Part shown: piece by piece, positions 3,621-27,888 of the stretch
Layout of the letters: every line of letters starts with the position of its first letter
Numbering within the stretch: the stretch's first letter is position 1
Assembly: GCA_020853095.1 (NCBI GenBank)
Contig: JADYZN010000023.1
Span: 1-42,091, forward strand
Direction of reading: 5' to 3'
Origin: Phycisphaerales bacterium
GTDB lineage: Bacteria; Planctomycetota; Phycisphaerae; Tepidisphaerales; Tepidisphaeraceae
Length of the DNA stretch: 42,091 bases
The notes under the pieces: generated by a model
Databases searched by the model: none
Told to the model about the DNA's origin: nothing
The model's input: only the letters and a program-made list of their open reading frames with translations
Position numbers and translations under genes: made by a program

Positions 3621-5225
3621 TTATCGGTCGACGGAAACTTTTGCGGTTTGGGTGTCCGTCGGGGCGGGTTTGCGACGTGCCCGCAGGGCGTCGGTGGGGG
3701 AGGTCGTCGGGCCGAGTTTGATCCCGGCGCTTTCGAGCAGTTGGCGGCCCTGGCCCATCTGCAACAGCAGCACCTGGTCGCCGGCGGACAAGCCGCTGAC
3801 GATCTGCACGTGGGTCTGGTTGCTGGTCCCGACGGTGACTTTTCGAGGCTGGGGATGGGCCTGGCCGCGAACGAAGACGTAGTTTTCCTTGCCGACGGAG
3901 TAGATGCAGGCCAGCGGGACCGCCATCACGTCCGCGAGGCTGTCGACGAGCACCTCGGCCTGCACGCCAAGGCCGGGTTTGAGGTCCGGTGGCGTGAAAT
4001 CCAGCGTCAGATCGACGGGGTATTCCTTCAGGTCCGGGTTCCACCAGCGCTGGCTGTTGTCGGCCAGCACGCTGATCTTGGTCAGCTTGGCGGTCACGGG
4101 GTCGGGGATGCCGACGATTTTGACCACGGCCAACTGGCCGAGGTGGAGCTTGGAGACCTGCGCCTCGGGCACGCGGATGACCGCCTTCATCGAGCTGGTG
4201 TCGGGCAATCGCAGAAGCAACTGCCGCTCGCGGACGGAAGTGCCCTCCTGGATGGGCGTCTGCTGGCTGCGGTCGAAGCTGGAGGAATAGACCACCATTC
4301 CATCGGCCGGCGCCTTGATGGTGCAATTGACCACCTGTTCCCGCATGTGTTCCACGCGCCGGCGGCGGAGCATCACGGACTGGTCGCGCGCCTGTTCATC
4401 GGCGATTTTCTGGGACAGGTTGCTGGCGTTTTCACGTTTGACACGGGTGAGTTTCTGTTCGGCCTGGGCGAGGGCGTTTTTCTTGCTGGTCAAATCCTTT
4501 TCGTGGGTGTATTGAGCCAGCACTTTCAGGGCGGTGGATTTTTTTTCCAGGTCGTTTTGCGCCGTCAGAAGGTCCAGCTCGCTTTTTTTGACGTCCGCGG
4601 CGGTCACGAATCCCTTGGCGAACAGGCTGCGGGTCTGGTTGAGGTCTTCCTGGCGGTTTTGCAGCGTCGTCTCGGCCATTTCCTTGTTGCGCTGGGCGTC
4701 GGAGAGCAACTGCGGATAAATTCCCTCGGTGTATTCCTGCAAATCCAACTGGGCCAGCGTCAGTTCCACGTGGGCGGCTTCGAGGTTGGCGGCGTTGGTC
4801 AGTTCCTGGATGCCGCGCTGCTCCTTGGAAGCGGTCAGGTCCGCCTCGGCGCGCTGCAAATCGAGGGTCGCATCCTCCAGTTTCTGCTTGATCTGCGAGG
4901 AATCGAGGATCAGGATCACGTCCCCCTTCTTCACGGTGCTGCCTTCCTTGACCACGAAGGTGATGGCGTTTTGCCCCTCGACCTGGCAGGAGACGTCGAT
5001 GTTGTTGATCGACTGCAACTCCCCATCCTTGGTCACGCGCACGTCCAGCGTCATCGGTTCCACCGAATAGTACGTGCCGCCGTCGGCGTTGCCGGATGAT
5101 CGAAGATGGTTTCGCGCCAGCCACGCCAGCCCGATCGCCACCACCAGCACCGCGGGGATCGCCACCCACAGCCAGCCGGATCGGCCCCGGCTCTTCAACA
5201 CGTTTGGAACTGGCACAACGCTCAT
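3621..5225 (-). CDS. HlyD/MacA-like periplasmic adaptor of an efflux system
   Basis: This 534-residue membrane-fusion protein bridges an inner-membrane pump and an outer-membrane channel. One N-terminal anchor lies at about residues 20-37 (WLWVAIPAVLVVAIGLAWLA). Then come the first half of the lipoyl/biotinyl domain (VKEGSTVKKGDVILILDSSQ), a long alpha-hairpin coiled coil of roughly 200 residues, the second lipoyl half (CTIKAPADGMVVYSS), a beta-barrel and a membrane-proximal domain (GLGVQAEVLVDSL onward). The long hairpin and the GDVILILD segment are closer to MacA/HlyD adaptors than to short AcrA-type ones. It lies 12 bases downstream of the TolC-like gene, so the two form an operon. No MacB, RND or ABC pump adjoins, so its pump must be elsewhere, or the exporter at 138-2345. 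Confidence 0.88.
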   Translation of the reverse strand: MSVVPVPNVLKSRGRSGWLWVAIPAVLVVAIGLAWLARNHLRSSGNADGGTYYSVEPMTLDVRVTKDGELQSINNIDVSCQVEGQNAITFVVKEGSTVKKGDVILILDSSQIKQKLEDATLDLQRAEADLTASKEQRGIQELTNAANLEAAHVELTLAQLDLQEYTEGIYPQLLSDAQRNKEMAETTLQNRQEDLNQTRSLFAKGFVTAADVKKSELDLLTAQNDLEKKSTALKVLAQYTHEKDLTSKKNALAQAEQKLTRVKRENASNLSQKIADEQARDQSVMLRRRRVEHMREQVVNCTIKAPADGMVVYSSSFDRSQQTPIQEGTSVRERQLLLRLPDTSSMKAVIRVPEAQVSKLHLGQLAVVKIVGIPDPVTAKLTKISVLADNSQRWWNPDLKEYPVDLTLDFTPPDLKPGLGVQAEVLVDSLADVMAVPLACIYSVGKENYVFVRGQAHPQPRKVTVGTSNQTHVQIVSGLSAGDQVLLLQMGQGRQLLESAGIKLGPTTSPTDALRARRKPAPTDTQTAKVSVDR

Positions 5226-5237
5226 GATGATCTTGAT

Positions 5238-7043
5238 TTATTCAACGGAGGCCCGCTTGTTCATCAACGCTTCCCGATCCATCGCCTGGCCCAGCGCCCC
5301 GGCGCGGGGGTCCACCCGCAGCGTCCCGGTCTCCTGGAGATACCGCAGCACGGAAATCTGCAATTGCGCCCTCGCCTGATCGTAGGCATCCTGCGCGGTT
5401 AAAAGCGAACTTTGCGCCTCGACCACATCCCGCGAGGTGACCTGTCCCTCCTTGAGCAGCTCGCCGGCGTAATCCAGCCGACGGCGGGCCAGCTCGATCC
5501 CCAGCCGCTGAATTTCAAGCGACACCTGCGCCGACCGGATCGCCCGCAGCGCATCGCGCGCCGAGATCGCGACCTGATCCCGCATGGATTCATACGCCCG
5601 CTGCGCCCGCTGCAACAGGATCAGCGAACGGCGATAGGTGTTGCGTTCGGCCACGCGGTCCACCGGCAAATCCAACGTCACGCCCGCGCCATAATTCAGC
5701 GTGCGATTTTCGATGTCGGATGCCGGACCAAACCCCACCGGGTTGCCGACGCTCACATCCGCATCGAGGTCCAGGTCCGGCAGCAGCCCGTTTTTCGCCA
5801 CCGACACCTGCCGGCGGGCATCGTCCACCTGGTCCCGCGCGGTCTGGATGTCCAGCCGATACTGCATCGCCAGTTTGATCACATCCTCCACCGGCGTGTG
5901 CGGGACTTCCAGGGACAATTCCACCGGAATCACTTCCAGTTCCTGGTCGATGGGCATGCCCAGCGCGATCTTGAACCGGTCGATCGCGCTCTGGTAGGAC
6001 TCCTGCGCATCGACCAGCGAACTCTCGGCCGTCAGCAACGCCTGCAACGACCGCTGCACCTCAAGGAAGCTGATCTTGCCCGCTTCGTACAGCGCCTGCG
6101 TGCGCTCGGTCAACGAGGCGAGATTTCGATAATTCAGCCGTCGATTCGACAATCCCTGCTGCTGGGTCAGCAGGCGGAAATACTGGGCGGCGATGTCCAC
6201 GACAAACTGTCGGCGGTAATCCTCAAACGCCCGCACCTGGTAGACCATCTGCCGTTCGCTGGAAATCAGCGGCTCAAGATTCACCATCCCCGCGCCGCGC
6301 AACAACGGAACCGATCCGCTGAGCGCCACCTGCGCTGATTCCCCCTCGGTGATCGCGCCGGTGAGCGTATCGACGAAGCTGACAAGGGTTTGCGCCACGA
6401 CCTCGCCGCCGTACGGAAGTTGCTGTCGAACCCCCGCCGAGGCGGTGGCCGTCAACGCCGACCGATAGGCCACGTCGCGCTGGCCCCCTTTGTAATGCAA
6501 ACCGGTGGTTACGAACGGGCGCGGCTCAAAAAGATGCCGCTGCAACGTCACATCCAGGGCGGCCAGATACAACCCTTCCATCTGCGTCTGGTATTCGCGG
6601 CTGTGCTGGACGGCGTATTCGATCGAACGGAACAGATCCAGTTTGGCGCCCGGGGCATTGGGCGCGGGCGGACCGAGTTCCAGCCGATCCGATCCCAGGC
6701 GTCGTTGCAGTTGTTCGCCGAACAGCTCGGGCAGGTTGGAGGTGGGCTGGGTGCTGGGGACCGGCGGCCCCAACGGCACATCGGACAGTTCAACATGGGC
6801 CGGCTCGATCGGCGCGGTGGTCGGCGGGGCAAGGGGCGTCGTCGGGATTTGGGCGAAGGCTTTGGATTGCGGAGCAGGCTCCACGGTTGTCGGGGCCGTG
6901 GATTGCGGCTGATACCCCAATGTCGTTTCCTTGCGGTCGGCGAGGATGCGCTGTACCTGCTCGTCGGCCGACCGCCGATGGGCTTCCGGCGAACAGCCGG
7001 CCATCATCAGGCCGCTCAGGATGAACACAATCGTCCTTCTCAC
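5238..7043 (-). CDS. TolC-family outer-membrane efflux lipoprotein
   Basis: This 601-residue outer-membrane efflux protein would form the trimeric exit duct used by the adaptor just downstream. The N-terminus is a lipoprotein signal (MRRTIVFILSGLMMAGC, cleavage before C17), followed by about 100 Pro/Thr-rich residues that are longer than usual. Two OEP-type helical repeats follow, rich in QRSLQALLTAESSLVDAQESY-like coiled coil, with the second repeat ending VVEAQSSLLTAQDAYDQARA. The two-repeat structure and total length fit TolC/OprM relatives. It is first in a two-gene operon with the adaptor. It starts 73 bases downstream of the pyruvyl transferase stop, on the same strand. Confidence 0.9.
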   Translation of the reverse strand: MRRTIVFILSGLMMAGCSPEAHRRSADEQVQRILADRKETTLGYQPQSTAPTTVEPAPQSKAFAQIPTTPLAPPTTAPIEPAHVELSDVPLGPPVPSTQPTSNLPELFGEQLQRRLGSDRLELGPPAPNAPGAKLDLFRSIEYAVQHSREYQTQMEGLYLAALDVTLQRHLFEPRPFVTTGLHYKGGQRDVAYRSALTATASAGVRQQLPYGGEVVAQTLVSFVDTLTGAITEGESAQVALSGSVPLLRGAGMVNLEPLISSERQMVYQVRAFEDYRRQFVVDIAAQYFRLLTQQQGLSNRRLNYRNLASLTERTQALYEAGKISFLEVQRSLQALLTAESSLVDAQESYQSAIDRFKIALGMPIDQELEVIPVELSLEVPHTPVEDVIKLAMQYRLDIQTARDQVDDARRQVSVAKNGLLPDLDLDADVSVGNPVGFGPASDIENRTLNYGAGVTLDLPVDRVAERNTYRRSLILLQRAQRAYESMRDQVAISARDALRAIRSAQVSLEIQRLGIELARRRLDYAGELLKEGQVTSRDVVEAQSSLLTAQDAYDQARAQLQISVLRYLQETGTLRVDPRAGALGQAMDREALMNKRASVE

Positions 7044-7116: not shown

Positions 7117-8379
7117 TCATTGTTTCGAGCCGGCCGGCAGCGCGGCCAGATGGTCGTAGGCCCGGCGGCCGCGTTCGATCTGCCGGCGGGCGGCTTCCAG
7201 CAGTGGCTGTCGCAATGCCGGCGCGGCGTTCCATTGCGATTCGATCGCCCGGCGCAATCGTCCGGCCAGATCGGGCTGGTCGGCCGGAACGATCAGGCAT
7301 CCATCGGGAAACTGACCCGCGATGCCGCGCATTTTGGCCGTGTAATAATCCGATGCGACGACCCCCACCACCGGCACACCCTGCGACAGCGCGAAAATGG
7401 CCGCGTGATAACTGCCGGTCATCACCACCCGACAACATCCAACCCGCTCCATCACCTCCTGGGGGGTGTCGGGGATCGACCAGTTGCCCGTGTCCATGAG
7501 TTGGCCGATGGATGTCACATCCGAATCCTCATCCTGCAACGCGATCGGCAGCGGGATCAGCGGGCCATTGAGTTGGTTGGACAGGTCGGCCAGGACCATC
7601 TTGAAAACGTGCAGTTGCCCGGCCAGCGCGCCGGCATAACCGGCCACCCGCAGATTCACCCCGATTCCATTGGCCGGGGCATCGGTTCGACCCAGATAGA
7701 CCGCTTCGATGGCATCATCGCCGGTGGTGTCGATGTAGTCCACCTTCACGCCCAGCTCATTGATCAAAGGGCGGCTGGTGACCGCCTCGCGCAAGGTCAG
7801 AAGATGAAGATGGTTCATCACCTCCGCGCCAAAGGACCGCAAAGCCGGATTATGCAGAGGACCCACCCCCTGCCCCACCATCGCGGTCCGTTTGTTCATC
7901 GACTGCGCCATCGCCAGCGTCCCCAGCACCATGCGGGCTTGATGTTCAAACGGGTCGGTGAGGTATCCGCCGCCGGTGCCGATGACCAGGTCCGCGTCGC
8001 GCACGGCCGACAGGTATGCCCGCATCGGCGCATCATCCACGCCCCGCGCACCCAACAACGGCCCCAGGATGGTTTGAATGAACAAAGCCCCCCGCCGGCG
8101 GGCGTTTTCGATCCGATGATAAAGGCGATCGTGGATCATCACCGGCAGCGGGCAACCTTCAAGGATGGAGGTCAGCGTCCATTGGCGCGCTCCTTCGCAC
8201 CACAACGGCTGTGCCTGCGGAACCAGCCGTCGAAGTCGCCGGGCATCGGCCGTCAGGCACTGGATCCGCGCATCGGGAAAACGTTCGGCCAGCCGTCGGG
8301 CGGCGACCTGCAACATGGCGACATCCCCCATGTTGCGAAGCGAATACGAAGAATTGTCCAGCAGGATTCGACGGATCAT
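7117..8379 (-). CDS. Polysaccharide pyruvyl transferase family protein
   Basis: This protein of about 420 residues would add ketal-linked pyruvate to a sugar of a surface polysaccharide. The N-terminus MIRRILLDNSSYSLRNMGDV matches the family opening, in which N-x-GD is followed by a hydrophobic helix. The C-terminal GSYHAAIFALSQGVPVVGV carries the conserved histidine and the G-x-P loop. The start ATG (8377-8379) overlaps the stop TGA of the PP-loop gene in the sequence ATGA, so the two are translationally coupled. A longer frame back to 8559 would run inside that gene and is rejected. It is followed on the same strand by the TolC/adaptor pair. The sugar substrate cannot be told; family members also include the peptidoglycan-linked CsaB group. 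Confidence 0.85.
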   Translation of the reverse strand: MIRRILLDNSSYSLRNMGDVAMLQVAARRLAERFPDARIQCLTADARRLRRLVPQAQPLWCEGARQWTLTSILEGCPLPVMIHDRLYHRIENARRRGALFIQTILGPLLGARGVDDAPMRAYLSAVRDADLVIGTGGGYLTDPFEHQARMVLGTLAMAQSMNKRTAMVGQGVGPLHNPALRSFGAEVMNHLHLLTLREAVTSRPLINELGVKVDYIDTTGDDAIEAVYLGRTDAPANGIGVNLRVAGYAGALAGQLHVFKMVLADLSNQLNGPLIPLPIALQDEDSDVTSIGQLMDTGNWSIPDTPQEVMERVGCCRVVMTGSYHAAIFALSQGVPVVGVVASDYYTAKMRGIAGQFPDGCLIVPADQPDLAGRLRRAIESQWNAAPALRQPLLEAARRQIERGRRAYDHLAALPAGSKQ

Positions 8380-9632
8380 GGCTTTTGTGCGCCCAGGGAT
8401 GCGGGAGGCTTGGCCGTCGGCCGGGGTGATGGGGAGCGGCCCAGAAGACGTTTCAACCGCGTGCGCAGGGCGGTTTTTTCGCGGAGTTTGCGAAACCACA
8501 TGGGACGACTGATTTCCTTCAGGTGATCGTCCAACGTAGCCTGCAGAGCGATGGTCCACGATCCTTCGGTGCCGTGGATTTTGGCCGCCTGAAGAATTTC
8601 CCGGATGGAAGCGGCCGCGTTGGGAGCCATGTCACGCTTATGCCAGGTGCGGATGAACTGGTCATCGGCATCGTGGGCAAAACATTCGGGCAGTTTCGCC
8701 CCCACGGCGCGGAACAACAGCAGCGACCGCATGCACTTGTAGCAGACGCCGCAATTTTGGCTCAGGTCCTGGCCTTCAAAGCAGATGCGCACGTTTCGCC
8801 GGCCGGCGGGCCATTGGGCGATGGCTTCGATTTTCTGGTGTCGCGCGAACGCCACGGCATCGTGTTCGATGGAAAACGAAGAGCCGCCCAACCGCCAATC
8901 CAGCAGAGGTGTGGACCCCCAGGGATTGGTGATTTTGCTGTAGGGGCTGCCGCTGGCGATCAGTCCGCCGCGAAATCCCTTCTGAAACAGCAGCAGCACC
9001 GCCGCCAGCGCGCTGCCGTGCATGTGTTCCCAGTTTTCCTCCGGCGTGATGATCCGCCAGTTGGTCGCCACGCGGGCCAGCGGCACGCCGAGGTCTTCGG
9101 TGATGGCCCGCGCCCTGGCCGATGCGCGGACAAACGTCTGCGTCTGGTTCAGCGGAATGTCGAATCCGTGAACCATGACGGCCGCCCCGATGGGCCGGGC
9201 CAGCCGGCCGCACAGTTTTTTGCAGTGCCGATAGAGCGTGAACGAGGCATCCGCCCCGCCGGAGAACGCCGAGACGTACCGTTCGGGCACTGGAAGCTCG
9301 CCTTCGGCCTCCCGGTCGGCGGTGATGGGGACCGGGGCGTACAGTTCGGGGCGATAATGATGCCAGGCATCCTGAAATTCGGTGAGATTGCGCAACAAGG
9401 AGGGAGAAACCCGGCCGTGAACGTGGATCGGCGCGCGTTTTTTCATCGCCTTGAACAACGTCCCCACCAGGAATGAATCCATCGCGTCGGTGATGAAGGG
9501 CACAAAGTCGTTGGCGACGGCGTATTGCAACGTCAACGGCGCATCACCGGCGCATTCGATCCGGGCGGAATACATGGTGGTATCCGGGCCGCGGGCCGGT
9601 TCGATCGGGCGTATATATAAGGTCTGATCCAT
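8376..9632 (-). CDS. QueC-like PP-loop (adenylating) protein with four-cysteine metal site
   Basis: This 418-residue protein has a PP-loop ATP-pyrophosphatase signature, SGGADAS, at residues 124-130, with one residue between the Asp and Ser compared with SGGLDS in QueC. The cysteines C284, C294, C297 and C300 (in QNCGVCYKC) closely resemble the QueC zinc site. Such proteins adenylate a carboxyl or carbonyl group. I have seen the NCG-x-C-x2-C pattern described in uncharacterised proteins of polysaccharide loci, but I cannot name a function. Residues 1-110 are an N-terminal domain I do not recognise. ATG 9632 is preferred because the longer frame starts only with TTG at 9677. It is coupled by ATGA to the pyruvyl transferase, which implies a shared glycan-modification task. 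Confidence 0.75.
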   Translation of the reverse strand: MDQTLYIRPIEPARGPDTTMYSARIECAGDAPLTLQYAVANDFVPFITDAMDSFLVGTLFKAMKKRAPIHVHGRVSPSLLRNLTEFQDAWHHYRPELYAPVPITADREAEGELPVPERYVSAFSGGADASFTLYRHCKKLCGRLARPIGAAVMVHGFDIPLNQTQTFVRASARARAITEDLGVPLARVATNWRIITPEENWEHMHGSALAAVLLLFQKGFRGGLIASGSPYSKITNPWGSTPLLDWRLGGSSFSIEHDAVAFARHQKIEAIAQWPAGRRNVRICFEGQDLSQNCGVCYKCMRSLLLFRAVGAKLPECFAHDADDQFIRTWHKRDMAPNAAASIREILQAAKIHGTEGSWTIALQATLDDHLKEISRPMWFRKLREKTALRTRLKRLLGRSPSPRPTAKPPASLGAQKP

Positions 9633-9731
9633 CGTACCTGCGTATTTTTTATCGGACGGCCGGTTGCCGGAAGGCAAATCATGACGGCCTCGTGTTCAAT
9701 GTTTATCGTCGAAACGCGGGCGGGACCGGAA

Positions 9732-10772
9732 TTATACCGCCCATGAGTCGCCGTTGATCTCCACCGCCACCCCGCGGCGGGCGCTTTCCCGCGCCGCATC
9801 CAGCAATTGCATCGTCGGCAGGACGCTGTGGGCCGTGACCGCCGGTTCGCCCTCGCCGCGGGTCGCGGCGGCGAATTGTTCCCAGATGATCGGCTCGTTG
9901 ATCCCTTCATCGGCCATCGCCAGACGGGCAGGCGAACCGGCCGCCGGGATGAAATCCAGCTCGGCCCACCGCCGCGTGTCGTAATCCGCCGAAGCGGGGC
10001 TTTGGCCGCTGCCGAGGATTCCATCGACATGCCATCGCGGCGGAGCGAACCGCGTCGTCGTGTTGATTTCCACCAGGCCGGCCGCCCCATCCTCAAAATC
10101 TATGCACACCCGTGCCAGATCATCGCAATCGTTTGCCCAGACGTTGCCGTGCAGTTGAGCGAACAGTCGCACCGGGCGGTTGGGCCACATCAATCGCCAC
10201 AACTGATCCACAAAATGGCTGCCCCAGTCATACAGCCCGCCGCCGCCATAGGCCGACTCGTTGCGCCAACCGGGCCGAAATTCCGTGGCGGCCGGACCCA
10301 CGCAACTGGCCCACTGCCCCAGCCTGCTTTCGACGTTGAACACCCGGCCGAACACCCCCGATCGAACGTGCTTGTCGATCGTCAGAAAATCCACATCCCA
10401 CCGCCGGTTGTGGAACACGCTCAGGGTCTTGTTGCGCCGATGGGCCTCCCGCATCATCTCCTGAGCCTGCGGCAAATCCAGCGCCATCGGCTTTTCGACC
10501 ATCAAATGCTTATCCGCTCGCAACGCGGCCATCGCCTGTTGGTGATGCATCGCGGTCGGCGTGGAAACCAACACCGCCCCCACCCGCACATCGTTCAACA
10601 GATCGTCAACGGACTGATAAACCGCCAACCCGCGCGACGATGCCATCTCCCGCCGGGCCGCGGTGACATCCGCCACGGCCACGACACGCACTCCCTTCGT
10701 CTGTCGGATCCACCGCTCATGCTCCGCCCCAATCCGTCCAAAACCGATGATGCCAACGCCAAGGATGTCCAT
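9732..10772 (-). CDS. Gfo/Idh/MocA family NAD(P)-dependent oxidoreductase
   Basis: This 346-residue dehydrogenase oxidises or reduces a sugar or inositol-like substrate in the cytoplasm. The N-terminal Rossmann fold has GFGRIG at residues 10-15. The family EKP motif is at 93-95 (MVEKPMAL), and the catalytic-type His lies in GGGLYDWGSHFVDQL. Length and domain order are standard. It lies 99 bases upstream of the PP-loop gene on the same strand and may share its transcript. With the DegT aminotransferase it could form a WlbA/WlbE-like dehydrogenase-transaminase pair making an amino sugar; this rests on family knowledge and proximity only. A TATAAT hexamer overlaps its stop codon and might serve the PP-loop gene, but no good -35 goes with it. 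Confidence 0.9.
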   Translation of the reverse strand: MDILGVGIIGFGRIGAEHERWIRQTKGVRVVAVADVTAARREMASSRGLAVYQSVDDLLNDVRVGAVLVSTPTAMHHQQAMAALRADKHLMVEKPMALDLPQAQEMMREAHRRNKTLSVFHNRRWDVDFLTIDKHVRSGVFGRVFNVESRLGQWASCVGPAATEFRPGWRNESAYGGGGLYDWGSHFVDQLWRLMWPNRPVRLFAQLHGNVWANDCDDLARVCIDFEDGAAGLVEINTTTRFAPPRWHVDGILGSGQSPASADYDTRRWAELDFIPAAGSPARLAMADEGINEPIIWEQFAAATRGEGEPAVTAHSVLPTMQLLDAARESARRGVAVEINGDSWAV

Positions 10773-14749: not shown

Positions 14750-14816
14750 CGCCGTTGAGAGGGCATGCCGTTTCCCCCAAGGCCATGCACGCCCGTAAAT
14801 CGTAGTTCATCGCCGC

Positions 14817-14837
14817 GAGGCGCCTTGTTGGCGCTTC
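14817..14837 (+). other. Hairpin 19 bases before the ribosome site
   Basis: GAGGCGCC and GGCGCTTC pair over 8 bp with one G-U, around the loop TTGTT. It precedes the strong AAAGGAG ribosome site (14856-14862) of the surface-protein gene and could affect initiation or mRNA stability. Confidence 0.45.
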
Positions 14838-14869
14838 CGCACAGAGTTTTACACCAAAGGAGTCTCACC

Positions 14870-17056
14870 ATGGCACAGAATTGCAATCAGTATGCTGATA
14901 ATCTCCACCGCTATCTGGCTGGCAACAGCCCCATCGCCATTGTGGCGTTGGAACCGATGGAATCGCGATTATTTCTTTCTTCTTCGCAGCATTCGGATGT
15001 ATGGGACGTTTCCACGCCGATTTCGGCGGCGGCCGGGGCCACCGCCCTGACGGCCACGGCCGCGCCGCAGGAGTCCCATAACGGATTGCGCGGCGAGTAT
15101 TACAACAACAAGAACCTCACCAGCCTGGCCCTGGTCCGCACGGATGCGGCCATCAACTTTGACTGGGGCTGGGAATCGCCCGATCGATCCATCCGGGCCA
15201 GCACGTTTTCCGAACGCTGGACCGGCTACATCCAGCCGCAATACAGCGAAACGTACACCTTCACCACGCGCAGCGACGATGGCGTGCGCGTATGGATCAA
15301 CAATCAACTGGTGATCGACCAGTGGAACGACCACGCCCCCAGCGAACATTCGGGGCAGATCACCCTGGAAGCCGGCAAGAAGTACGACTTCCGCATGGAG
15401 CATTACGAGAAGACCGGCGTGGCCGTGGCCGAGCTGTATTGGCAAAGCGCCTCGCAGAGCCGCCAGCTTGTTCCGGCCGCCGCGTTTTTCATGAAACCGG
15501 ATGCCACCACGCCAACCCAACCGACGCAGCCCATCCCCCCGACCACGCCGGTTGACCCCACGCCCGTTCCTCCGACGACGCCTGTGGAGCCGACTCCGCC
15601 GCCCAAGCCGGTCGAGCCTCCGTTGCCGGTGGCGCCCAACGCGCCCAGCGGTCTGAATGCCAGCGCCATCTCCACCTCGCAGATCAATCTGACCTGGGTG
15701 GACCGCAGCGCCAACGAAAGCCGGTTCATCATCGAGCGCTCCACCGATGGGCAGGGTTTTTCGCGTCTGGCATCGGTGGGCGCCAACACCACCACTTACA
15801 GCGACAAGGCCCTGGCCGAGGGAACGCGCTATTCGTACCGCGTGCTGGCGGCCAATGACGGCGGCAACAGCGCCTATACGGCCGCCGCGCAGGCGACGAC
15901 GCAGACGACCCCCACGCCGCCGCCGGTCACGCCGACGCCTCCGACCAATCCGAATCCGACCCCGACGCCGCCGACTTATCCGACGCCGCCGACCGGGCCG
16001 GTCAATTACACCGGTCCGATCACCATCACCAAGGGTGGCGTCTACACCGGCAACTGGGAAAGCAACGACGCCAAGCGGGCCGCGGTCGAGATCGACACCA
16101 CCGAGGCGGTGACGATCATCAATTCCAACATTCGCGGCCGGGGCCATTTGATCCAATCCTCGGTCAGGGGCGCGAACGTGACGGTGCTCAACACCGCCGG
16201 TTACGCCCTGAACCCCAACGTCTCGGGACGTTCGCCGGGGCGGTTCGTCAACGCCGAATTTTTCAACAAGATCGACGTTGAAAACTGTTACATGGAAGGA
16301 ACCGCCGGCATGTACTTCTACAAGGGGGGCGACATCACCGTCCTGTACAACGCCGCCAAGAACATCGACGGCAGGGCCAGCGACGGCCACGGCGGGTTTT
16401 CCACCAACGACAGCGACAGCGACCTGGTGCAGTTCGTTCAATTGAACGACATCCACGACCAGACCGTCCAGATCGCCTGGAACCAGGTCATCAACGAGCC
16501 GGGCAAGAGCCGGGCCGAGGACGTCATCAGCATCTATGGATCATCGGGAACGGCCAACAATCCGATCTCGGTCCATGACAACTACATCCAGGGATCGTAC
16601 CCGTCCGACCCGGCCAATGACGGCTTCAGCGGCGGCGGGATCATGGTCGGCGACGGCGGCGGCTGCGGATACATCGTGGCGTACAACAACACCGTTGTCT
16701 CGACCAGCAACTATGGCATCGCCATTTCGGCCGGACATGACAACAAGGTGTACAACAACCGCATCGTGTCGGCCGGCATTCTGCCCGATGGGCGTCGAAT
16801 CGACAGCCAGAACGTGGGCTTGTACGTCTGGAACGCCGGCGGCGATGCGAATTTCGCCCGCAACTCGGCCACCGACAACCTGATCGGCTGGTCCAACGGC
16901 GGCGGCGGCCGAAACGACTCGTGGACGCCGGATGGAACGGTGTCCAACAACCAGGGCATGAGCGGTTCGATCACCCTGGCCACCGAGGCCAACGAGCTGA
17001 AACTGTGGCAGGCGAAACTCAACAGCGCCGGCTACGTTGTCGGTGTGAGGAAATAA
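14870..17056 (+). CDS. Large secreted surface protein: PA14, FN3 and parallel beta-helix
   Basis: This 728-residue protein starts at ATG 14870 behind AAAGGAG. Residues 26-37 (ALEPMESRLFLS) are a planctomycete LEPRLLLS-type motif marking large exported proteins; there is no classical signal peptide before it. Domains in order: PA14, about 72-208 (GLRGEYYNN; SDDGVRVWINNQLVID), a likely carbohydrate-binding module; Pro/Thr linker 210-255; fibronectin type III 257-345; second Pro/Thr linker 346-378; and a right-handed beta-helix from about 379 to the end, with Asn-rich turns as in pectate-lyase-like folds. No catalytic set is evident to me, so it may bind or cleave a polysaccharide. It stands alone, facing the exopolysaccharide operon across a shared terminator. 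Confidence 0.88.
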   Translation: MAQNCNQYADNLHRYLAGNSPIAIVALEPMESRLFLSSSQHSDVWDVSTPISAAAGATALTATAAPQESHNGLRGEYYNNKNLTSLALVRTDAAINFDWGWESPDRSIRASTFSERWTGYIQPQYSETYTFTTRSDDGVRVWINNQLVIDQWNDHAPSEHSGQITLEAGKKYDFRMEHYEKTGVAVAELYWQSASQSRQLVPAAAFFMKPDATTPTQPTQPIPPTTPVDPTPVPPTTPVEPTPPPKPVEPPLPVAPNAPSGLNASAISTSQINLTWVDRSANESRFIIERSTDGQGFSRLASVGANTTTYSDKALAEGTRYSYRVLAANDGGNSAYTAAAQATTQTTPTPPPVTPTPPTNPNPTPTPPTYPTPPTGPVNYTGPITITKGGVYTGNWESNDAKRAAVEIDTTEAVTIINSNIRGRGHLIQSSVRGANVTVLNTAGYALNPNVSGRSPGRFVNAEFFNKIDVENCYMEGTAGMYFYKGGDITVLYNAAKNIDGRASDGHGGFSTNDSDSDLVQFVQLNDIHDQTVQIAWNQVINEPGKSRAEDVISIYGSSGTANNPISVHDNYIQGSYPSDPANDGFSGGGIMVGDGGGCGYIVAYNNTVVSTSNYGIAISAGHDNKVYNNRIVSAGILPDGRRIDSQNVGLYVWNAGGDANFARNSATDNLIGWSNGGGGRNDSWTPDGTVSNNQGMSGSITLATEANELKLWQAKLNSAGYVVGVRK

Positions 17057-17150: not shown

Positions 17151-17945
17151 TCAGATGGGCGGGGCGAATCCGACCAGGTTTTGTTGTTTTCGCATCGTCG
17201 CCGCCGAATCGCCCCATCGCCGGCAGATTTCGCCGTTGGTCAGACAGGGCAGGCGGTCTTTGAACTGGCCCATGAGTTGCAGGATTCGTTCCAGCCGGGA
17301 CCACTGTTCCTCGCTCTCCATCTCCCATGAGTGGCCCCAGAGATGAAACACGCCGCCGGCCCGTGCCGTTCGTTCCAGCAGGCGCCGGGCGAGCGGTTCC
17401 CATTGTCCGGCGACGCCCCCCCGCACGATGTAGGTCCACAGGCCGCGCAACGATGCGCGTTTCACCAGATGTCTGAGGATGGTCGTCGGGGCGTGATCGC
17501 GGGCCTGGATCGTGGTAGGCATGATCACCAGCCTTCCCGCCCGGCGCGGAAAACCCATCGACAGCAGCTCGATCGTGCGCACCCCGATGAACCCCGCATC
17601 GGCGATCATCCGCAGGTGTTTTCGGTTGTACCGGCCGGCCGGAGGACAGAACATCGAACAACTTTGGCCGGTGATTTGTTCCAGCCAGGTCTTGCCTTCG
17701 CGGATTTCCGATTCGGCGAGACGATCGCTGAGCCTGACCAGAGACAGATGGTGCAGGGTGTGGCCACCCATCTCGAATCGGCGGGACAGATCGCGCAACG
17801 GCCCGATCGACATCGTGCCGGTTCGCGCCATCATCGGGACGTAAAACGTCCCGTTCAATCCATGCCGGTCAAGCAATTCCCCCACGCGGGCATCGGTTGG
17901 ATGCCCATCATCCCAACTGAACGTCATGCACCCCGTCGGCCCCAT
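17151..17945 (-). CDS. Polysaccharide deacetylase (NodB homology, CE4)
   Basis: This 264-residue protein has the metal-dependent NodB motifs in order: FSWDDG (D12, D13), the HTLHH metal histidines in MGGHTLHHLSL, CPPAGRYN, and a late histidine in FHLWGHSWEM. It probably removes N- or O-acetyl groups from the polysaccharide. ATG 17945 follows a clear GGAGG, 4-5 bases away; the longer frame from 18008 overlaps the upstream glycosyltransferase and lacks a ribosome site. No signal peptide is visible, so it may act in the cytoplasm on a precursor, or be exported in some other way. It lies 11 bases after the GT4 gene and is the last gene of the operon. Confidence 0.9.
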   Translation of the reverse strand: MGPTGCMTFSWDDGHPTDARVGELLDRHGLNGTFYVPMMARTGTMSIGPLRDLSRRFEMGGHTLHHLSLVRLSDRLAESEIREGKTWLEQITGQSCSMFCPPAGRYNRKHLRMIADAGFIGVRTIELLSMGFPRRAGRLVIMPTTIQARDHAPTTILRHLVKRASLRGLWTYIVRGGVAGQWEPLARRLLERTARAGGVFHLWGHSWEMESEEQWSRLERILQLMGQFKDRLPCLTNGEICRRWGDSAATMRKQQNLVGFAPPI

Positions 17946-17956
17946 TTCGCCTCCAT

Positions 17957-19180
17957 TTATTCTCCCGCCAGCAACGTTGGACGATAGCCATTTGCCCGCG
18001 AATCGCAACCGGAGGCGATCGCACGCTCATAACCGGCCATCATCATCTGAACATTGCGAGAGCCGGTAAACCGCCGCAGATACGTCTCCCGGCCCTTTTT
18101 GCCCATCTCCATCATCCGGTCGGGATGATCCCAGGCCAGGCGGACTTTGGAGGCGAAATCCCCGGTGGAAGCCGGATCGAACAACAGGCCCGTGAGGCCA
18201 TCTTCTACGATCGTCGCGGCCGCGCCGGCCTTTGTCGCCAGCACCGGGACCGCGCAGGCCATCGATTCCAGAGCCACCATTCCGAAGGTTTCATACAGCA
18301 GCGAAGCGAACAGGCATGCCCGCGCCCGATGCATCTGTTCGATCACCCCTTTGCGATCCATCGGCCCCAGATATCGAATCGAGGGGCATTTGCCGGCCGC
18401 GTCGCGCACCAGGTCCGCCAGCGGGCCATCCCCCACCACGTGCAACGGGCAGGGCATCTGTTGTTCCATCCACGCCCGCAGGAGAAATTCCACCCCCTTG
18501 TCCCGCGTCAGCCGGCCGACAAACAGAAAATAATCGCCCGTGTGGGTTTTGGGGCCGGGATCCGGCTCAAGAAAATTCGGCTTGACGATGATCTTGTCGG
18601 CGGGCAAGCCTCCCTGGATGAATTTGTCGCGGGCGAAATCCGTCGGCGTGAAATACAGGTCCACATCGTGGGTCCACGTCCGGCGGATGCGGTGGGTCAT
18701 CAACATCGCCGCCACCACGGCCGATTGAGGCCGCGATGCGCGATAACACCCATGTTTCACCCCCGCCCACGGCCCGCAGCCGACGCACTCCTCACATACC
18801 CGGCCATCGCGGAACAACAGCGCGTTGATGCACATCAGCCGGTAATTGTGCAACGTCTGCACCACGGCGGTCCCTTCGGCCCGGCACGCCGAATAGGCCG
18901 ACGGCGAAATCAGCGGAAACGTGTTGTGAAAATGGACGACCTGAGGCCGAAACTGTTGCACCGCCCGGCGCACGCGCTGGGCCGCCGATGCCGACCAGAT
19001 CGTCCCGCCGGCCAGTTTCGCCGACCGCAAGGGGCCGCGCCGATCGGGAATCTCATCGTTGTCAAACGTCAGCCGATGAACTTCCTGCCCGTGCGATTCC
19101 AACAGCGCCCCCTCGGCCGCGAAGACCACATCCTCGCCACCCGCCTCGCGATAAAAATTATGCACCAGCAATATCCGCAT
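17957..19180 (-). CDS. GT4-family glycosyltransferase
   Basis: This 407-residue retaining glycosyltransferase of the GT-B fold starts MRILLVHNFYREAGGEDVVF, typical of GT4. The C-terminal nucleotide-sugar site has VGRLTRDKGVEFLL and the E-x7-E pair in ETFGMVALE. A Cys-rich segment, CEECVGCGPW, in the N-terminal half occurs in one GT4 subgroup and may hold a metal. The start at 19180 is chosen over the longer frame to 19207 because it opens with the canonical beta strand. It is separated from the rest of the operon upstream by the 707-base gap holding the DUF559 unit, and by 11 bases from the deacetylase downstream. Donor and acceptor sugars are unknown. Confidence 0.92.
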   Translation of the reverse strand: MRILLVHNFYREAGGEDVVFAAEGALLESHGQEVHRLTFDNDEIPDRRGPLRSAKLAGGTIWSASAAQRVRRAVQQFRPQVVHFHNTFPLISPSAYSACRAEGTAVVQTLHNYRLMCINALLFRDGRVCEECVGCGPWAGVKHGCYRASRPQSAVVAAMLMTHRIRRTWTHDVDLYFTPTDFARDKFIQGGLPADKIIVKPNFLEPDPGPKTHTGDYFLFVGRLTRDKGVEFLLRAWMEQQMPCPLHVVGDGPLADLVRDAAGKCPSIRYLGPMDRKGVIEQMHRARACLFASLLYETFGMVALESMACAVPVLATKAGAAATIVEDGLTGLLFDPASTGDFASKVRLAWDHPDRMMEMGKKGRETYLRRFTGSRNVQMMMAGYERAIASGCDSRANGYRPTLLAGE

Positions 19181-19222
19181 AACCGACCCAATCACCATTC
19201 CCCCCAACCATACTCCAATACA

Positions 19223-19300
19223 TCCCTCGCGATGCTCCTCTTGTCCCCCTCCCGTTACTCCTCTGGTCCCCTCTCCCGGTACTCCGGGGGAGGGTTAGGG
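19223..19300 (-). repeat. Left repeat array, inverted relative to the right one
   Basis: Read on the minus strand, the innermost unit matches GGAGTAYCGGGRGAGGGGAC and is followed by two progressively decayed copies beginning GGAGTAACGGG and GGAGCATCGCG. Bases 19266-19300 are a perfect 35-bp inverted copy of 19752-19786. The inner end folds on itself: CCCTCTCCCGG and CCGGGGGAGGG differ from perfect pairing at one position. Confidence 0.8.
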
Positions 19301-19702
19301 AGGGGGCGGGGAAGAAGAAGTGCCCCCTCCCAACCTCTCCCTCCTCTGTTCAATCCTTCTTTCTACCTCCCTCAAAATCGTCAACGCCACCGACTCTCCA
19401 TCTTTCATCACCTCATGATTCGTAAACCGAATCACTTCCACCCCCGATTATTCCATTGCATCCGTCCGTCGTCGATCATATTCCATCGCCCGATCCTCCC
19501 CATGTTGGTCTCCATCCAGTTCGATCACCAGCCGTGCGGAATGGCAATAAAAGTCCGCGATGTAATTGCCCATCGGATGCTGTCGGCGAAAGGAGTATCC
19601 GCTCAGGCGACCGCTTTTCACATAGTGCCAGATCCGTCGTTCGGCGTCCGTGCTGGTCTTGCGCAGTTGTCTGGCGAGGTGGATCAGGCGTTTTGTGGGC
19701 AT
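19295..19702 (-). pseudogene. DUF559 endonuclease-like gene interrupted by an in-frame TAA
   Basis: The frame starts at ATG 19702 (MPTKRLIHLARQLRKTSTDA) and shows the DUF559 restriction-like core: ERRIWHYVKSGRLSGYSFRRQ, YIADFYCHSARLVIELDGDQH. A TAA at 19448-19450 stops it after 84 residues. The same frame goes straight on with the family's last strand, SGVEVIRFTNHEVMKD, and ends at TAA 19295-19297, giving about 135 codons, the expected full length. So one nonsense change has split an otherwise intact gene. DUF559 proteins resemble Vsr-type nucleases; the proposed Asp/Glu core residues are before the stop. The reading end overlaps the left repeat array. Confidence 0.75.
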
Positions 19703-19751
19703 GATTCAGATCCTGTTCAAGATACCGATTCGGCTCCCTCCTCCCCCCCCA

Positions 19752-19840
19752 CCCTAACCCTCCCCCGGAGTACCGGGAGAGGGGACAAAGCGGAGTATCG
19801 GGGGAGGGGACAAAGCGGAATTCCGCCAGAGGGGACCAGA
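19752..19840 (+). repeat. Right array: three tandem 25-bp units
   Basis: Units lie at 19766-19790, 19791-19815 and 19816-19840, exactly 25 bp each. Units 1 and 2 differ at two positions; unit 3 is more diverged (starts CGGAATTCCGCC). The consensus core is GGAGTAYCGGGRGAGGGGAC. Bases 19752-19786 are the perfect inverted partner of 19266-19300. The array begins 50 bases beyond the DUF559 start and ends 47 bases before the Wzy/ligase stop. Confidence 0.85.
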
Positions 19841-19887
19841 ATGGCCACGAATATTGTTCGCGGCATGGATGGGGTCCGAGCCGCATT

Positions 19888-21282
19888 TTATGCGAGGACT
19901 TCGGTTGGCTTTTGGATCTCCTTTCGGGCAAATTCGATTTCCTGGCGATGTTGGTGGTTTTTTTGTCTTAAATCCCACTCCTGCGCCACGCGGACGGCCA
20001 TGCCGAAGCCGATCCATGACCAGAACCAGATTCCGGCTTGCGGGCCTTCGAGGTAGACGTCAAAGCTCGCATTGACGTTGAACGCGATCCAGTAGGCCAG
20101 CACCCACGCATCCACCCTGGCCCACCATTCCTGGCCGGATTTGCGCGCCCGCCAGTATCCGCGCAACATCCCGGCCGCGAAAACCCCCTGCAACAACAAC
20201 CACAGCGCAAATCCCGGCACGCCCGATCGCGCCAGGATGGTCATGTGCGCGCTGTGCGGACTGCGCAGCGGCGGGCCTTCCTCGGTCCCCAGAAACCCAT
20301 CGTCCAGCGCCAGGTTCACGCCATACCCTTTGCCGGTCCAGAAATATTTTCCGCCGAAGGTGTAGTCGATGATCCCGCCCCACCAGTTCAGCCGCCATTC
20401 ACGGGTGTCGTCCAGGTCGCCCCGGTTGGTGTCCTCAAAAATGCTCGTCACGTTGGAGATCAACTGCTGGGCGGACACCTCGCGGCGGTTCATCTCGATT
20501 TTCAGGTCGATGAAGATCGCGATGCAGATCCCCATCAGCACCAGCGCCGCCGCCTTGCCCCAATGACCGGCGCTGCGCGGCCGCAACGCCATCACCACGC
20601 CCGCGGCCGCGAAGATCGACAGCATCCCGCCCCGGTTGGCGGAGGCCGCCATCACCACGCCGGCCGACCAGATGATCCACCACCACCAGTCGCGCATCAG
20701 CCGGTTCAGTCCTTTCATTTTCGGCCGCAAAACCTGGTGAAGGCCCAGCGCCATGAACGACGCCGCCCCGGCCAGATGCACGGCCGTGTCGCCCGGTTTC
20801 AGATACAACAACGGCTCATTGGTTCCCGGCACGCTGGGGATCGCACCCTTGAGGATCCGTTGCAGCAGATATCCCACCGGCAGCCACAACAGCACGGCCG
20901 GCAGCAACCGGCCGTACAGCTTCACCGCCTTCACCACCCACCCGCAATGCAGCAGGCAGATCGCGGTCATCATCGCGAAGACCCCGTAACCCCACAACGT
21001 CGCATCGCGCAGCGACAAAATGCCATATTGCTTCAGATAGGGAAGCGTGCAGAGCAGCCCATCGACCGCCAGCATGACCCAGACCCAGACCACCGCCTGA
21101 TTTTTGATCAGTTGGATGCCGCCGCCGATCAGCACCGCCGCCAATCCCAGCGTCAATACGATCTCCCCCACGTACACTGGTCCGGCCCCAAGATAGGCGA
21201 AGCCCTTGTCCAGCGCCAGATACCCCCCCAGCAACACCGCCAGGGCGCGCAACCAGAACTTTTGAAACTCGATTCCTCGCAT
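19888..21282 (-). CDS. O-antigen ligase / Wzy-like polymerase membrane protein
   Basis: This 464-residue inner-membrane protein has about ten hydrophobic segments and one long periplasmic loop (roughly residues 265-365). That loop contains the Wzy_C-type signature around RSPHSAHMTILARSGVPGF, in which S/P-H is followed by a G-x-x-G turn. Such proteins join lipid-linked repeats into a polymer or ligate glycans to an acceptor. Within an operon holding a Wzx-like flippase and Wzc-like kinase, polymerase is the better guess. Its ATG shares bases with the stop of the upstream GT4 (TAATG), so it is translationally coupled. The last 30 residues are charged and cytoplasmic. Confidence 0.85.
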   Translation of the reverse strand: MRGIEFQKFWLRALAVLLGGYLALDKGFAYLGAGPVYVGEIVLTLGLAAVLIGGGIQLIKNQAVVWVWVMLAVDGLLCTLPYLKQYGILSLRDATLWGYGVFAMMTAICLLHCGWVVKAVKLYGRLLPAVLLWLPVGYLLQRILKGAIPSVPGTNEPLLYLKPGDTAVHLAGAASFMALGLHQVLRPKMKGLNRLMRDWWWWIIWSAGVVMAASANRGGMLSIFAAAGVVMALRPRSAGHWGKAAALVLMGICIAIFIDLKIEMNRREVSAQQLISNVTSIFEDTNRGDLDDTREWRLNWWGGIIDYTFGGKYFWTGKGYGVNLALDDGFLGTEEGPPLRSPHSAHMTILARSGVPGFALWLLLQGVFAAGMLRGYWRARKSGQEWWARVDAWVLAYWIAFNVNASFDVYLEGPQAGIWFWSWIGFGMAVRVAQEWDLRQKNHQHRQEIEFARKEIQKPTEVLA

Positions 21283-22505
21283 TATTCCGCCGCGCTCAGA
21301 TTCAATTCGCGCAGATAGGATTCCACCATCGACTCGCGCGTGAAAAAACGTTGAAAATGTTCACGGCCGCGACGACCCAGCTCCGCACGCATGGCCGCGT
21401 CATCCAGCACCGGCCGAAGAATCTGCATTGACGCATTCTCATCGTTCGGGTGCAGCAGCACGCCCCCCTGCAATATCGCGTGAACCTCCGGCACGCCTCC
21501 CGATGGCAGCGCCGCCGAAGGCACCCCCGCCCGCGCCGATTCGAGCAAGGCCAGCCCGAACGATTCCACCAGTGAATAATGGATGTACAGGTCGCACATC
21601 GCCAGCAACGCCGGCACATCCCCGCGTTGGCCGAGCAGTTTCACGCGGTGTTCGATGCCCAGTTGGTGCGCCCGCCGGCGCAGCGCTGAACGGTCCGGCC
21701 CCTCGCCCACCAGCACCAGTTTGGCCCGTTCATATTCCCCGGCGATCCGGGCGAACAGATCGACCAGCGCCATCTGGTTTTTTCTGCGTTCCAGCGAACC
21801 GACCATCAATAAAACCAGGTCCTGATCCGACAATCCCAGCGAACGGCGATCGACCGCCGCCGGCCGGCCATTGTCCGCCAGGCCGTTCCAGATCACCACC
21901 GACCGCTTTGGCCGGATGTCGCGCGCCTGTTCCAGCGATTTGCGGGCGGAATTGGAAACGTAAATGACCCGGTCCACCGCCTGGAAGACGTCCACTTCCT
22001 GTTGCTCGATGCGTTTGGCGGTTTTGGGATCGTTCAACTGGCCGTTGTCCAGCGCCTCGCGGGCGTGGCTGTAGGCGAAATGGCAGATCATCGAGACGTC
22101 AAAGTCGCGCCCCAATTGCGAACGAACCTCCAATGCCGCCCGCGCGCTCAACGGGCAGGTCGCCACGATGTGCGTCACCGGCCGGGATTTGGCATGGCGT
22201 AAAAAACTCTGCTTCAGGGCAACAAAATGCCAGTGGCGATACCAGCGCAGCGCCCAGTTGCGATTGATCCAATCCAACCCCAGCCGGCGGATGGCAAAAA
22301 CCCCTTTCCAATGTTTCCCACCGGAAAAGGGGGTAATCAGGGGTGACAAAAGCCCGCGTTCGGCCAGTCCATCCAACAGCACCCGCGTGTGGGTTTGCAC
22401 GCCGGTGTTGCCAGCCGGGCGCATCATGGTCAAAACGACCACGGCGGCCTTGTCGGGCGATGAAATCTTCGGCGGGGGCATGGTCAATGTCGCCTGGCTG
22501 GTCAT
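21282..22505 (-). CDS. GT4-family glycosyltransferase
   Basis: This 407-residue GT-B enzyme has an N-terminal acceptor half opening with VVVLTMMRPAGNTGVQTHTR and a donor half with VGSLERRKNQMALVDLFA, VGEGPDRSALRRRA and the E-x7-E pair in ESFGLALLE. It should add a sugar to the undecaprenyl-linked precursor. It is coupled on both sides: its ATG overlaps the stop of the APH-like kinase gene as ATGA, and its stop overlaps the Wzy start as TAATG. It is clearly distinct from the second GT4 downstream, so at least two sugars are added after the priming one. Confidence 0.93.
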   Translation of the reverse strand: MTSQATLTMPPPKISSPDKAAVVVLTMMRPAGNTGVQTHTRVLLDGLAERGLLSPLITPFSGGKHWKGVFAIRRLGLDWINRNWALRWYRHWHFVALKQSFLRHAKSRPVTHIVATCPLSARAALEVRSQLGRDFDVSMICHFAYSHAREALDNGQLNDPKTAKRIEQQEVDVFQAVDRVIYVSNSARKSLEQARDIRPKRSVVIWNGLADNGRPAAVDRRSLGLSDQDLVLLMVGSLERRKNQMALVDLFARIAGEYERAKLVLVGEGPDRSALRRRAHQLGIEHRVKLLGQRGDVPALLAMCDLYIHYSLVESFGLALLESARAGVPSAALPSGGVPEVHAILQGGVLLHPNDENASMQILRPVLDDAAMRAELGRRGREHFQRFFTRESMVESYLRELNLSAAE

Positions 22506-26586: not shown

Positions 26587-26599
26587 CCGTTAAAAAAGT

Positions 26600-27814: not shown

Positions 27815-27888
27815 AACTTCCCTTGGCTTCACCCGATTGCCAACGAACAACTCGTCCATTCTACCACGAATCACTTCATTACCTCGTT

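Follow-up and report, generated by a model that had tools for sequence, protein, structure and literature searches.

We analyzed a 42,091-nucleotide stretch of DNA from a Phycisphaerales bacterium (assembly GCA_020853095.1, contig JADYZN010000023.1; the window below), and focused on a minus-strand gene at 8376-9632. Its product is a QueC-superfamily PP-loop protein predicted to share the domain layout of QatC, and the gene overlaps one for a member of the polysaccharide pyruvyl transferase family (PF04230). The protein belongs to an unnamed family of ~400-aa proteins with a sparse and patchy distribution. We tentatively propose, at somewhat below even chances, that it is an ATP-dependent carboxylate ligase that turns a carboxyl group of a glycan building block into an amide. 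The proposal has as its basis the predicted fold, the PP-loop and a four-cysteine (Cys4) site, the lack of QueC-type substrate motifs, and a specific linkage to PF04230 genes and asparagine synthetase homologues. What is new here is the QatC-like build with a new partner and setting; the chemistry of the QueC superfamily is already known. G000 denotes the genome of the window, and the other G and L numbers denote other genomes and loci compared.

Linkage to PF04230 genes and asparagine synthetase homologues

We searched the 37 genomes carrying the family for PF04230 and obtained 58 matches (one under the cut-off, some partial), of which 14, 17, and 19 had a family gene no more than 0.5, 1.5, and 3 kb away, respectively, against 0.05, 0.09, and 0.15 expected by chance from gene numbers and genome sizes, with contig breaks not modeled. 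Counted from the other side, 17 of the 54 family genes in these genomes had a PF04230 neighbor within 1.5 kb, and the single PF04230 gene of G000 and that of G320, a genome of the same genus, is the neighbor of the QueC-like gene. The coupling to a pyruvyl transferase, which a preliminary description had drawn from the window, is therefore conserved (17/58 within 1.5 kb vs. 0.09 expected).

We then counted genes by position around 109 dereplicated representatives, labeling them by hidden Markov models (HMMs) built from the neighbors; a Pfam check confirmed the transferase label on all five representatives tried and Asn_synthase on two. PF04230-type genes were concentrated directly beside the family gene (23/199 at ±1, 3/286 at ±3/4, 3/368 further out; Fisher P = 1.3e-10), and 21 of the 23 adjacent ones were on its strand. 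Asparagine synthetase homologues followed the same gradient (14/199, 3/286, and 1/368, respectively; P = 1.2e-6), and glycosyltransferases followed none (13/199, 29/286, and 33/368; P = 0.93). From these gradients, PF04230 genes and asparagine synthetase homologues are the specific partners, and glycosyltransferases mark only the kind of locus. Within four genes, a transferase was found in 31/109 representatives, an asparagine synthetase homologue in 18/109, both in 11/109, and a glycosyltransferase in 31/109; among 128 neighbors in 21 loci hand-picked as glycan-type, GT2 was counted 24 times, PF04230 11 times, and Asn_synthase eight times. Adjacent pairs occurred in loci titled Planctomycetes, Chloroflexi (Anaerolineae), Cyanobacteria (Nostoc), Acidobacteria, Geobacter, Calditrichota, Bacteroidetes, and Gammaproteobacteria including Psychrobacter, with four-base overlaps of ATGA type in the window, L087, and L183.

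Cys2 is the glutaminase nucleophile of asparagine synthetase. The homologues next to the family genes retain SGGxDSR and start with MANF or MTNF, the second residue not being Cys, and such glutaminase-less proteins fit an ammonia- or amine-dependent ligation. MANF-type homologues were also seen directly before the QueC-like gene in three polysaccharide loci (L108, 8120-9928 on the plus strand; L087, 10499-12364 on the minus strand; L118, 8211-10004 on the plus strand).

Sequence motifs and relation to QueC

The coordinates given in the preliminary description were correct, and the strand, which it had left unstated, is minus. Translation of 8376-9632 on that strand bore out the SGGADAS loop and the four cysteines (C284, C294, C297, and C300) described there, as well as the ATGA overlap with a pyruvyl transferase (PF04230, 87.7 bits, above the gathering cut-off of 25.3, E = 1.6e-24). 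The claim that the cysteines are laid out like the QueC zinc site was right at the sequence level: a profile alignment pairs CFEGQDLSQNCGVCYKC of the window protein with CYDP...CGHCDSC of QueC, the comparison being limited to the Cys site (probability 69, 38 columns).

Residues G126, D128, G156, C284, N293, C294, C297, and C300 were invariant in a 62-member alignment, so the PP-loop and Cys motifs are not due to chance, and no Cys beyond the four was conserved in that alignment. Among 104 full-length representatives, an exact SGGxDS was present in 70 and S[GC]GxD in 83, the remainder having mostly TGG or SAG, and C(x)6-16CxxCxxC was present in 103 (C-x9-CxxCxxC in the window protein). The first Cys of the site is followed by an aromatic residue (Phe in the window protein, mostly Trp in relatives), at the place of QueC Tyr189, which is reported to be essential (PMC13329287).

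The likeness to QueC (PDB 2pg3 and 3bl5) thus covers the core fold (Z = 13.2), the SGGxDS loop, and the C-aromatic ... CGxC..C site. Unlike QueC, the window protein is ~185 aa longer, and the QueC substrate motifs YxQxHxxE, VPxRN, and YPDC (PMC13329287) were each found in 0/104 representatives. The window protein matched neither Pfam QueC (PF06508) nor any NCBIfam model; PF06508 was matched by 8/24 relatives at E ≤ 0.1 (best 1.1e-4). Moreover, G000 has a full canonical queC on a separate contig (C24; TIGR00364, 196.6 bits, cut-off 150.3), and a separate canonical queC was present in 20/20 other carrier genomes searched. Canonical QueC identity is ruled out by this separate queC and the missing substrate motifs, and it is scarcely credible that the protein is QueC or a preQ0-pathway paralogue, in spite of the shared PP-loop, Cys4 site, and core fold. 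This agrees with the view, taken in the preliminary description, of a QueC-superfamily protein outside queuosine biosynthesis and far from any queuosine gene: none was present among the Pfam-scanned open reading frames (ORFs) of the window, which were a part of them all. Similarly, no tRNA modification locus was found among the recurrent neighbor clusters examined, which took in some of the neighbors.

Predicted fold and comparison with QatC, Cap9, and other families

The AlphaFold2 model built from 62 sequences had a mean predicted local distance difference test score (pLDDT) of 93.9 and a predicted template modeling score (pTM) of 0.89. The full model had no Foldseek match at E ≤ 0.001, and the structural ranking comes from VIA-align run on the Foldseek candidates, so that the match to QatC rests on VIA-align. 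The top match was QatC (9y01_B: Z = 16.7, root mean square deviation 4.5, 299 aligned residues, model residues 1 to 369), followed by QueC (2pg3, Z = 13.2, 185 aligned; 3bl5, Z = 13.2, 179 aligned), Cap9 (9nto, Z = 12.4, 168 aligned), PP-loop sulfurtransferases (Z of 11 and below, 9-11), and the nitrile synthetase ArtA (Z = 9.0). QatC exceeded the other matches by more than 3 in Z and was the sole top match to include the N-terminal domain; this domain alone, in an RNase H-like arrangement, had a best Z of 5.9 and no Foldseek match at E ≤ 0.001, which is too weak to name it; QatC was not among the matches listed for the isolated domain, and this rules nothing out. The predicted build is that of QatC: an N-terminal domain, a QueC-like core with the Cys4 site, and a helical C-terminal extension. 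By eye, Asp52 (56/62 members) starts a helix D-P-F-V-x-A that resembles the region of the invariant Asp62 of QatC, D-F-L-x-x-A.

The protein therefore resembles QatC of the qatABCD anti-phage systems (PDB 9y01 and 9y02) in its whole-length fold, in both terminal extensions, and in combining a PP-loop with a Cys4 site, but the identity is 11%, its partner is a PF04230 enzyme, and no qatA, qatB, or qatD was identified in the window. The family lacks the zinc pattern and the RxR...F and W-R motifs of QatC: the zinc variant C(x)19CGxCxxRR was found in 0/104 representatives, allowing a spacer of 15-28, and D(x)4R(x)7WxR in 1/104. PADLOC identified no QatC in the window protein and one in 24 relatives (E = 0.069), G000 contained no QatC at 1e-10, and hhalign against QatC aligned the Cys site only (23 columns, probability 43). 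Neither the window protein nor six neighbors matched a PADLOC defense family, QatB (which has no Pfam model) not being searched for by itself. Membership in a qatABCD system is ruled out by these profile searches, the zinc pattern, and the neighbors.

Cap9 of type IV cyclic-oligonucleotide-based antiphage signaling systems (CBASS; PDB 9nto) shares the core fold over 168 residues, the PP-loop, and the Cys4 site, but it has ~185 aa and stands beside a CD-NTase (PMC13329287), whereas the window protein has 418 aa and neighbors without a PADLOC family. WbpG-type N-sugar and WbpS-type amidotransferases are comparable as enzymes of PP-loop or asparagine synthetase type by which nitrogen is added to surface sugars; they differ in that the WbpG cluster has CxxC(x)6CxC (PMC13329287) and WbpS is AsnB-like, and none of the 62 members matched NCBIfam families of these types. 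The best Pfam match of the window protein was DUF6395 (PF19932), which at 20.8 bits fell short of the required 25; it is a weak local similarity at the Cys4 site shared by 9/24 members (best 3.1e-5) but restricted to residues 278-316 of the window protein.

The RxH motif of the neighboring transferase

In Pvg1p, the R-x-H motif (R337-L338-H339) was modeled to contact phosphoenolpyruvate (PMC6801904). The transferases of the window, G320, L087, L118, L181, and L183 have S-Y-H in its place. The Arg was present in 15/23 transferases adjacent to a family gene and in 18/21 nonadjacent ones, and its loss was limited to the branch of the window and that of L131, L146, and L160. We considered this loss as a mark of the pair and rejected it, the Arg being missing in 8/23 adjacent vs. 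3/21 nonadjacent transferases, which is too close for a rule.

Distribution of the family and gene layout of the window

Searches with the window protein found matches in 21/294 genomes of the phylum at 1e-10 and in 21/397 genomes of the class at 1e-8, and in a cross-phylum scan 206 pattern matches were obtained, of which 128 were relatives, with 80 loci kept. Another family member lay within four genes in 16/109 representatives. Runs of two or three family genes were seen in L053, L054, L124, L094, L101, L170, L176, and L180, and G000 itself has a second, tandem pair on contig C68 (L050; 2018-3127 and 2641-4317, both on the plus strand), in which the first copy lacks the PP-loop and the Cys4 site and is perhaps a pseudo-enzyme partner of the second, which retains both. 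Natural fusions were considered for a 1,231-aa ORF in L177 and other long ORFs; the extension in L177 is arginine- and proline-rich and shadow-like, and we claim no fusion.

The features of the window are listed in Table 1. A TTG at 9677 would be an alternative start adding 15 residues to the QueC-like ORF. G320 has the same gene order as the window (oxidoreductase, QueC-like gene, transferase, TolC, HlyD). An exopolysaccharide cluster (17151-30087) begins ~7.5 kb upstream, at higher coordinates, and contains deacetylase, glycosyltransferase, Wzy_C, bacterial sugar transferase, and Wzz/AAA_31 matches in Pfam. Adjoining it is a gene (14765-17056, plus strand) whose 763-aa product is of surface type and has PA14 and fn3 domains.

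Table 1 Features of the QueC-like gene and its surroundings in the window
Feature	Position	Strand	Evidence or remark
QueC/QatC-like PP-loop ATPase, 418 aa, ATG start	8376..9632	-	Translation, conserved family, AlphaFold2 model
PP-loop SGGADAS, residues 124-130	9243..9263	-	G126 and D128 invariant
Cys4 site C284-x9-C294-xx-C297-xx-C300, presumed to bind zinc	8733..8783	-	Invariant in 62/62; aligns with QueC zinc site
N-terminal domain, residues 1-113	9294..9632	-	Three antiparallel strands followed by helix-strand-helix-strand; arranged as in RNase H, but the match is weak
PF04230 polysaccharide pyruvyl transferase family protein, 420 aa	7117..8379	-	PF04230, 1.6e-24
ATGA stop/start overlap, 4 bases	8376..8379	-	TGA 8378-8376 of QueC-like gene on ATG 8379-8377 of PF04230 gene
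S323-Y324-H325 at the R-x-H place, Arg missing	7405..7413	-	Roles of R-x-H as in PMC6801904
Gfo/Idh/MocA oxidoreductase, upstream of QueC-like gene	9732..10772	-	Pfam; present in same-genus G320, not in G646
TolC-type outer membrane efflux protein, downstream	5238..7043	-	Pfam; kept in G320
HlyD-like adaptor, downstream	3621..5225	-	Named by eye; kept in G320

Proposed function and alternatives

We have proposed that the protein is a glycan-directed carboxylate ligase. In such a reaction, the substrate would be a sugar or glycan intermediate on which the adjacent PF04230 enzyme also acts. The PP-loop ligase would adenylate a carboxyl group of this intermediate, and the acyl group would then be passed to ammonia or another amine to give an amide; the carboxyl could be one installed by the PF04230 enzyme as a pyruvate-type ketal. 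QueC uses ATP and ammonia to convert a carboxylate to an amide and a nitrile, and Cap9 links a carboxylate to the N terminus of a protein (PMC13329287, PMC12424860). Adenylation of a carboxylate is likely for the window protein as well, because it is the step common to QueC and Cap9 and the PP-loop and fold are present. The glycan setting is suggested by the partner genes, and a carboxyl made by the PF04230 partner would be the most economical substrate because that gene alone is tightly linked. Amide product and glycan carboxyl, like the adenylation itself, are modeled on the chemistry of QueC, Cap9, and WbpS. The preliminary description had suggested an amide or a nitrile on a glycan; its placing of the protein in the superfamily outside queuosine and its coupling to PF04230 stand, the glycan surroundings stand in part, and nothing favors a nitrile. 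Two features went unremarked in it: the closest solved fold is that of QatC rather than QueC, and the pyruvyl transferase of the window lacks the Arg of RxH.

Several observations weigh against a glycan-directed amide ligase. Any of the three markers (transferase, glycosyltransferase, asparagine synthetase homologue) was present within four genes in 48/109 representatives, and none in 61/109, many contigs being short; the glycan neighborhood expected in the preliminary description is thus conserved in part, although the pyruvyl transferase is conserved. The last Ser of the PP-loop, present in 53/62 members, is Ala129 in the window protein, and an asparagine synthetase partner of the window's own is missing, G000 having just a 24.8-bit match. 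As the window transferase lacks the Arg of RxH, pyruvylation itself is unsure and the enzyme may not transfer pyruvate. No uronate-making dehydrogenase was among the 25 most frequent of the 137 families to which the 128 neighbors belong. For close relatives in G220 and G135 the surrounding genes are unrelated, and relatives in Melainabacteria (L134, 4561-6764, and L151, 2110-3321, both on the minus strand) have as neighbors either nitroreductase and YcaO genes or a radical S-adenosylmethionine (SAM) gene, settings also seen in peptide natural-product clusters. In the gammaproteobacterium Pragia fontium (L150, 5150-15075), the QueC-like gene accompanies class V aminotransferase, dihydrodipicolinate synthase (DHDPS), AhpC/TSA-like, and leuA-like genes (Pfam), and the actinomycete Kitasatospora phosalacinea (L126) has by eye a similar cluster; this looks like a small-molecule pathway. 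The family may have been recruited repeatedly as a general carboxylate ligase, its glycan branch being one use among several.

Three other functions have to be weighed. The first is protein modification of the QatC/Cap9 type: a carboxylate (deazaguanine or another acid) would be attached to a partner protein, at its N terminus or on a side chain, in a defensive or regulatory role. The PF04230 enzyme and the asparagine synthetase homologue are conceivable partners. Such a function would suit the QatC-like build and a tight pairing with one partner gene like that of QatB with QatC. We nevertheless consider it improbable, given the absence of PADLOC families and of the QatC zinc pattern reported above. 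Moreover, the transferase partners inspected start with MIRRILL or MRILVDSG and lack the MG(T/G)S N terminus of QatB and CD-NTase, they come from unrelated PF04230 subgroups, and the loci are of glycan rather than defense type. A little less probable is a WbpS-like amidation of a uronic acid, at the level of the sugar nucleotide or of a lipid-linked sugar, with the pyruvyl transferase serving for a separate decoration of the same repeat unit. WbpS, of AsnB type, makes uronamide sugars in such loci (PMC7468200), and asparagine synthetase homologues often adjoin the family genes, but uronate dehydrogenases are missing from the 25 most frequent neighbor families, and the tight position effect concerns PF04230 and not sugar-acid genes.

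The last of the three, to which we give a lower chance again, is a different acceptor altogether, by ATP-dependent sulfur transfer (as in LarE, MnmA, and ThiI) or by lactam or ester formation on a small molecule, with a glycan link in one branch only. It draws on the structural matches to PP-loop sulfurtransferases and on the relatives in YcaO/nitroreductase, radical SAM, and DHDPS/aminotransferase clusters; against it, the sulfurtransferases rank below QatC, QueC, and Cap9 and span the PP-loop core only, and the four residues of the Cys4 site are the only conserved cysteines. An amide ligase acting on a glycan carboxylate remains our preferred function. Polysaccharide structures of Psychrobacter were also considered: the capsule of P. 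marincola contains N-acetylgalactosaminuronic acid (GalNAcA) and amide-linked lactic acid (PMC7281560); carriage of the gene by that strain is not established, and we did not use this as evidence.

Implications

A literature search, covering part of its last result list, returned no paper on the family or on a pairing of QueC with a pyruvyl transferase. The main text of a QueC survey built on PF06508 (PMC13329287, 2026) contains neither "pyruvyl" nor "polysaccharide", and such a survey would leave out proteins missed by the PF06508 model. In two defense systems, the QueC scaffold is known to have been turned from the making of a base to the modification of proteins, and the reaction of QatC is described as an open question in the Discussion of PMC12424860. 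A much more widely placed family with the QatC build and a dedicated glycan partner offers a second, possibly easier handle on the extended scaffold. In its boldest form, which we regard as unlikely on the whole, the proposal is that the family caps pyruvate-type ketals, or the products of PF04230 enzymes lacking the Arg, on surface polysaccharides as a glycan-carboxylate amide ligase. The QatC-type extended QueC scaffold would then have a third use, in a modification not described so far, with a possible origin of QatC outside defense. If glycan carboxylates are indeed amidated, the result would be a charge-neutralizing surface modification, and a function would be gained for unnamed genes in many polysaccharide loci, including those of culturable Psychrobacter.

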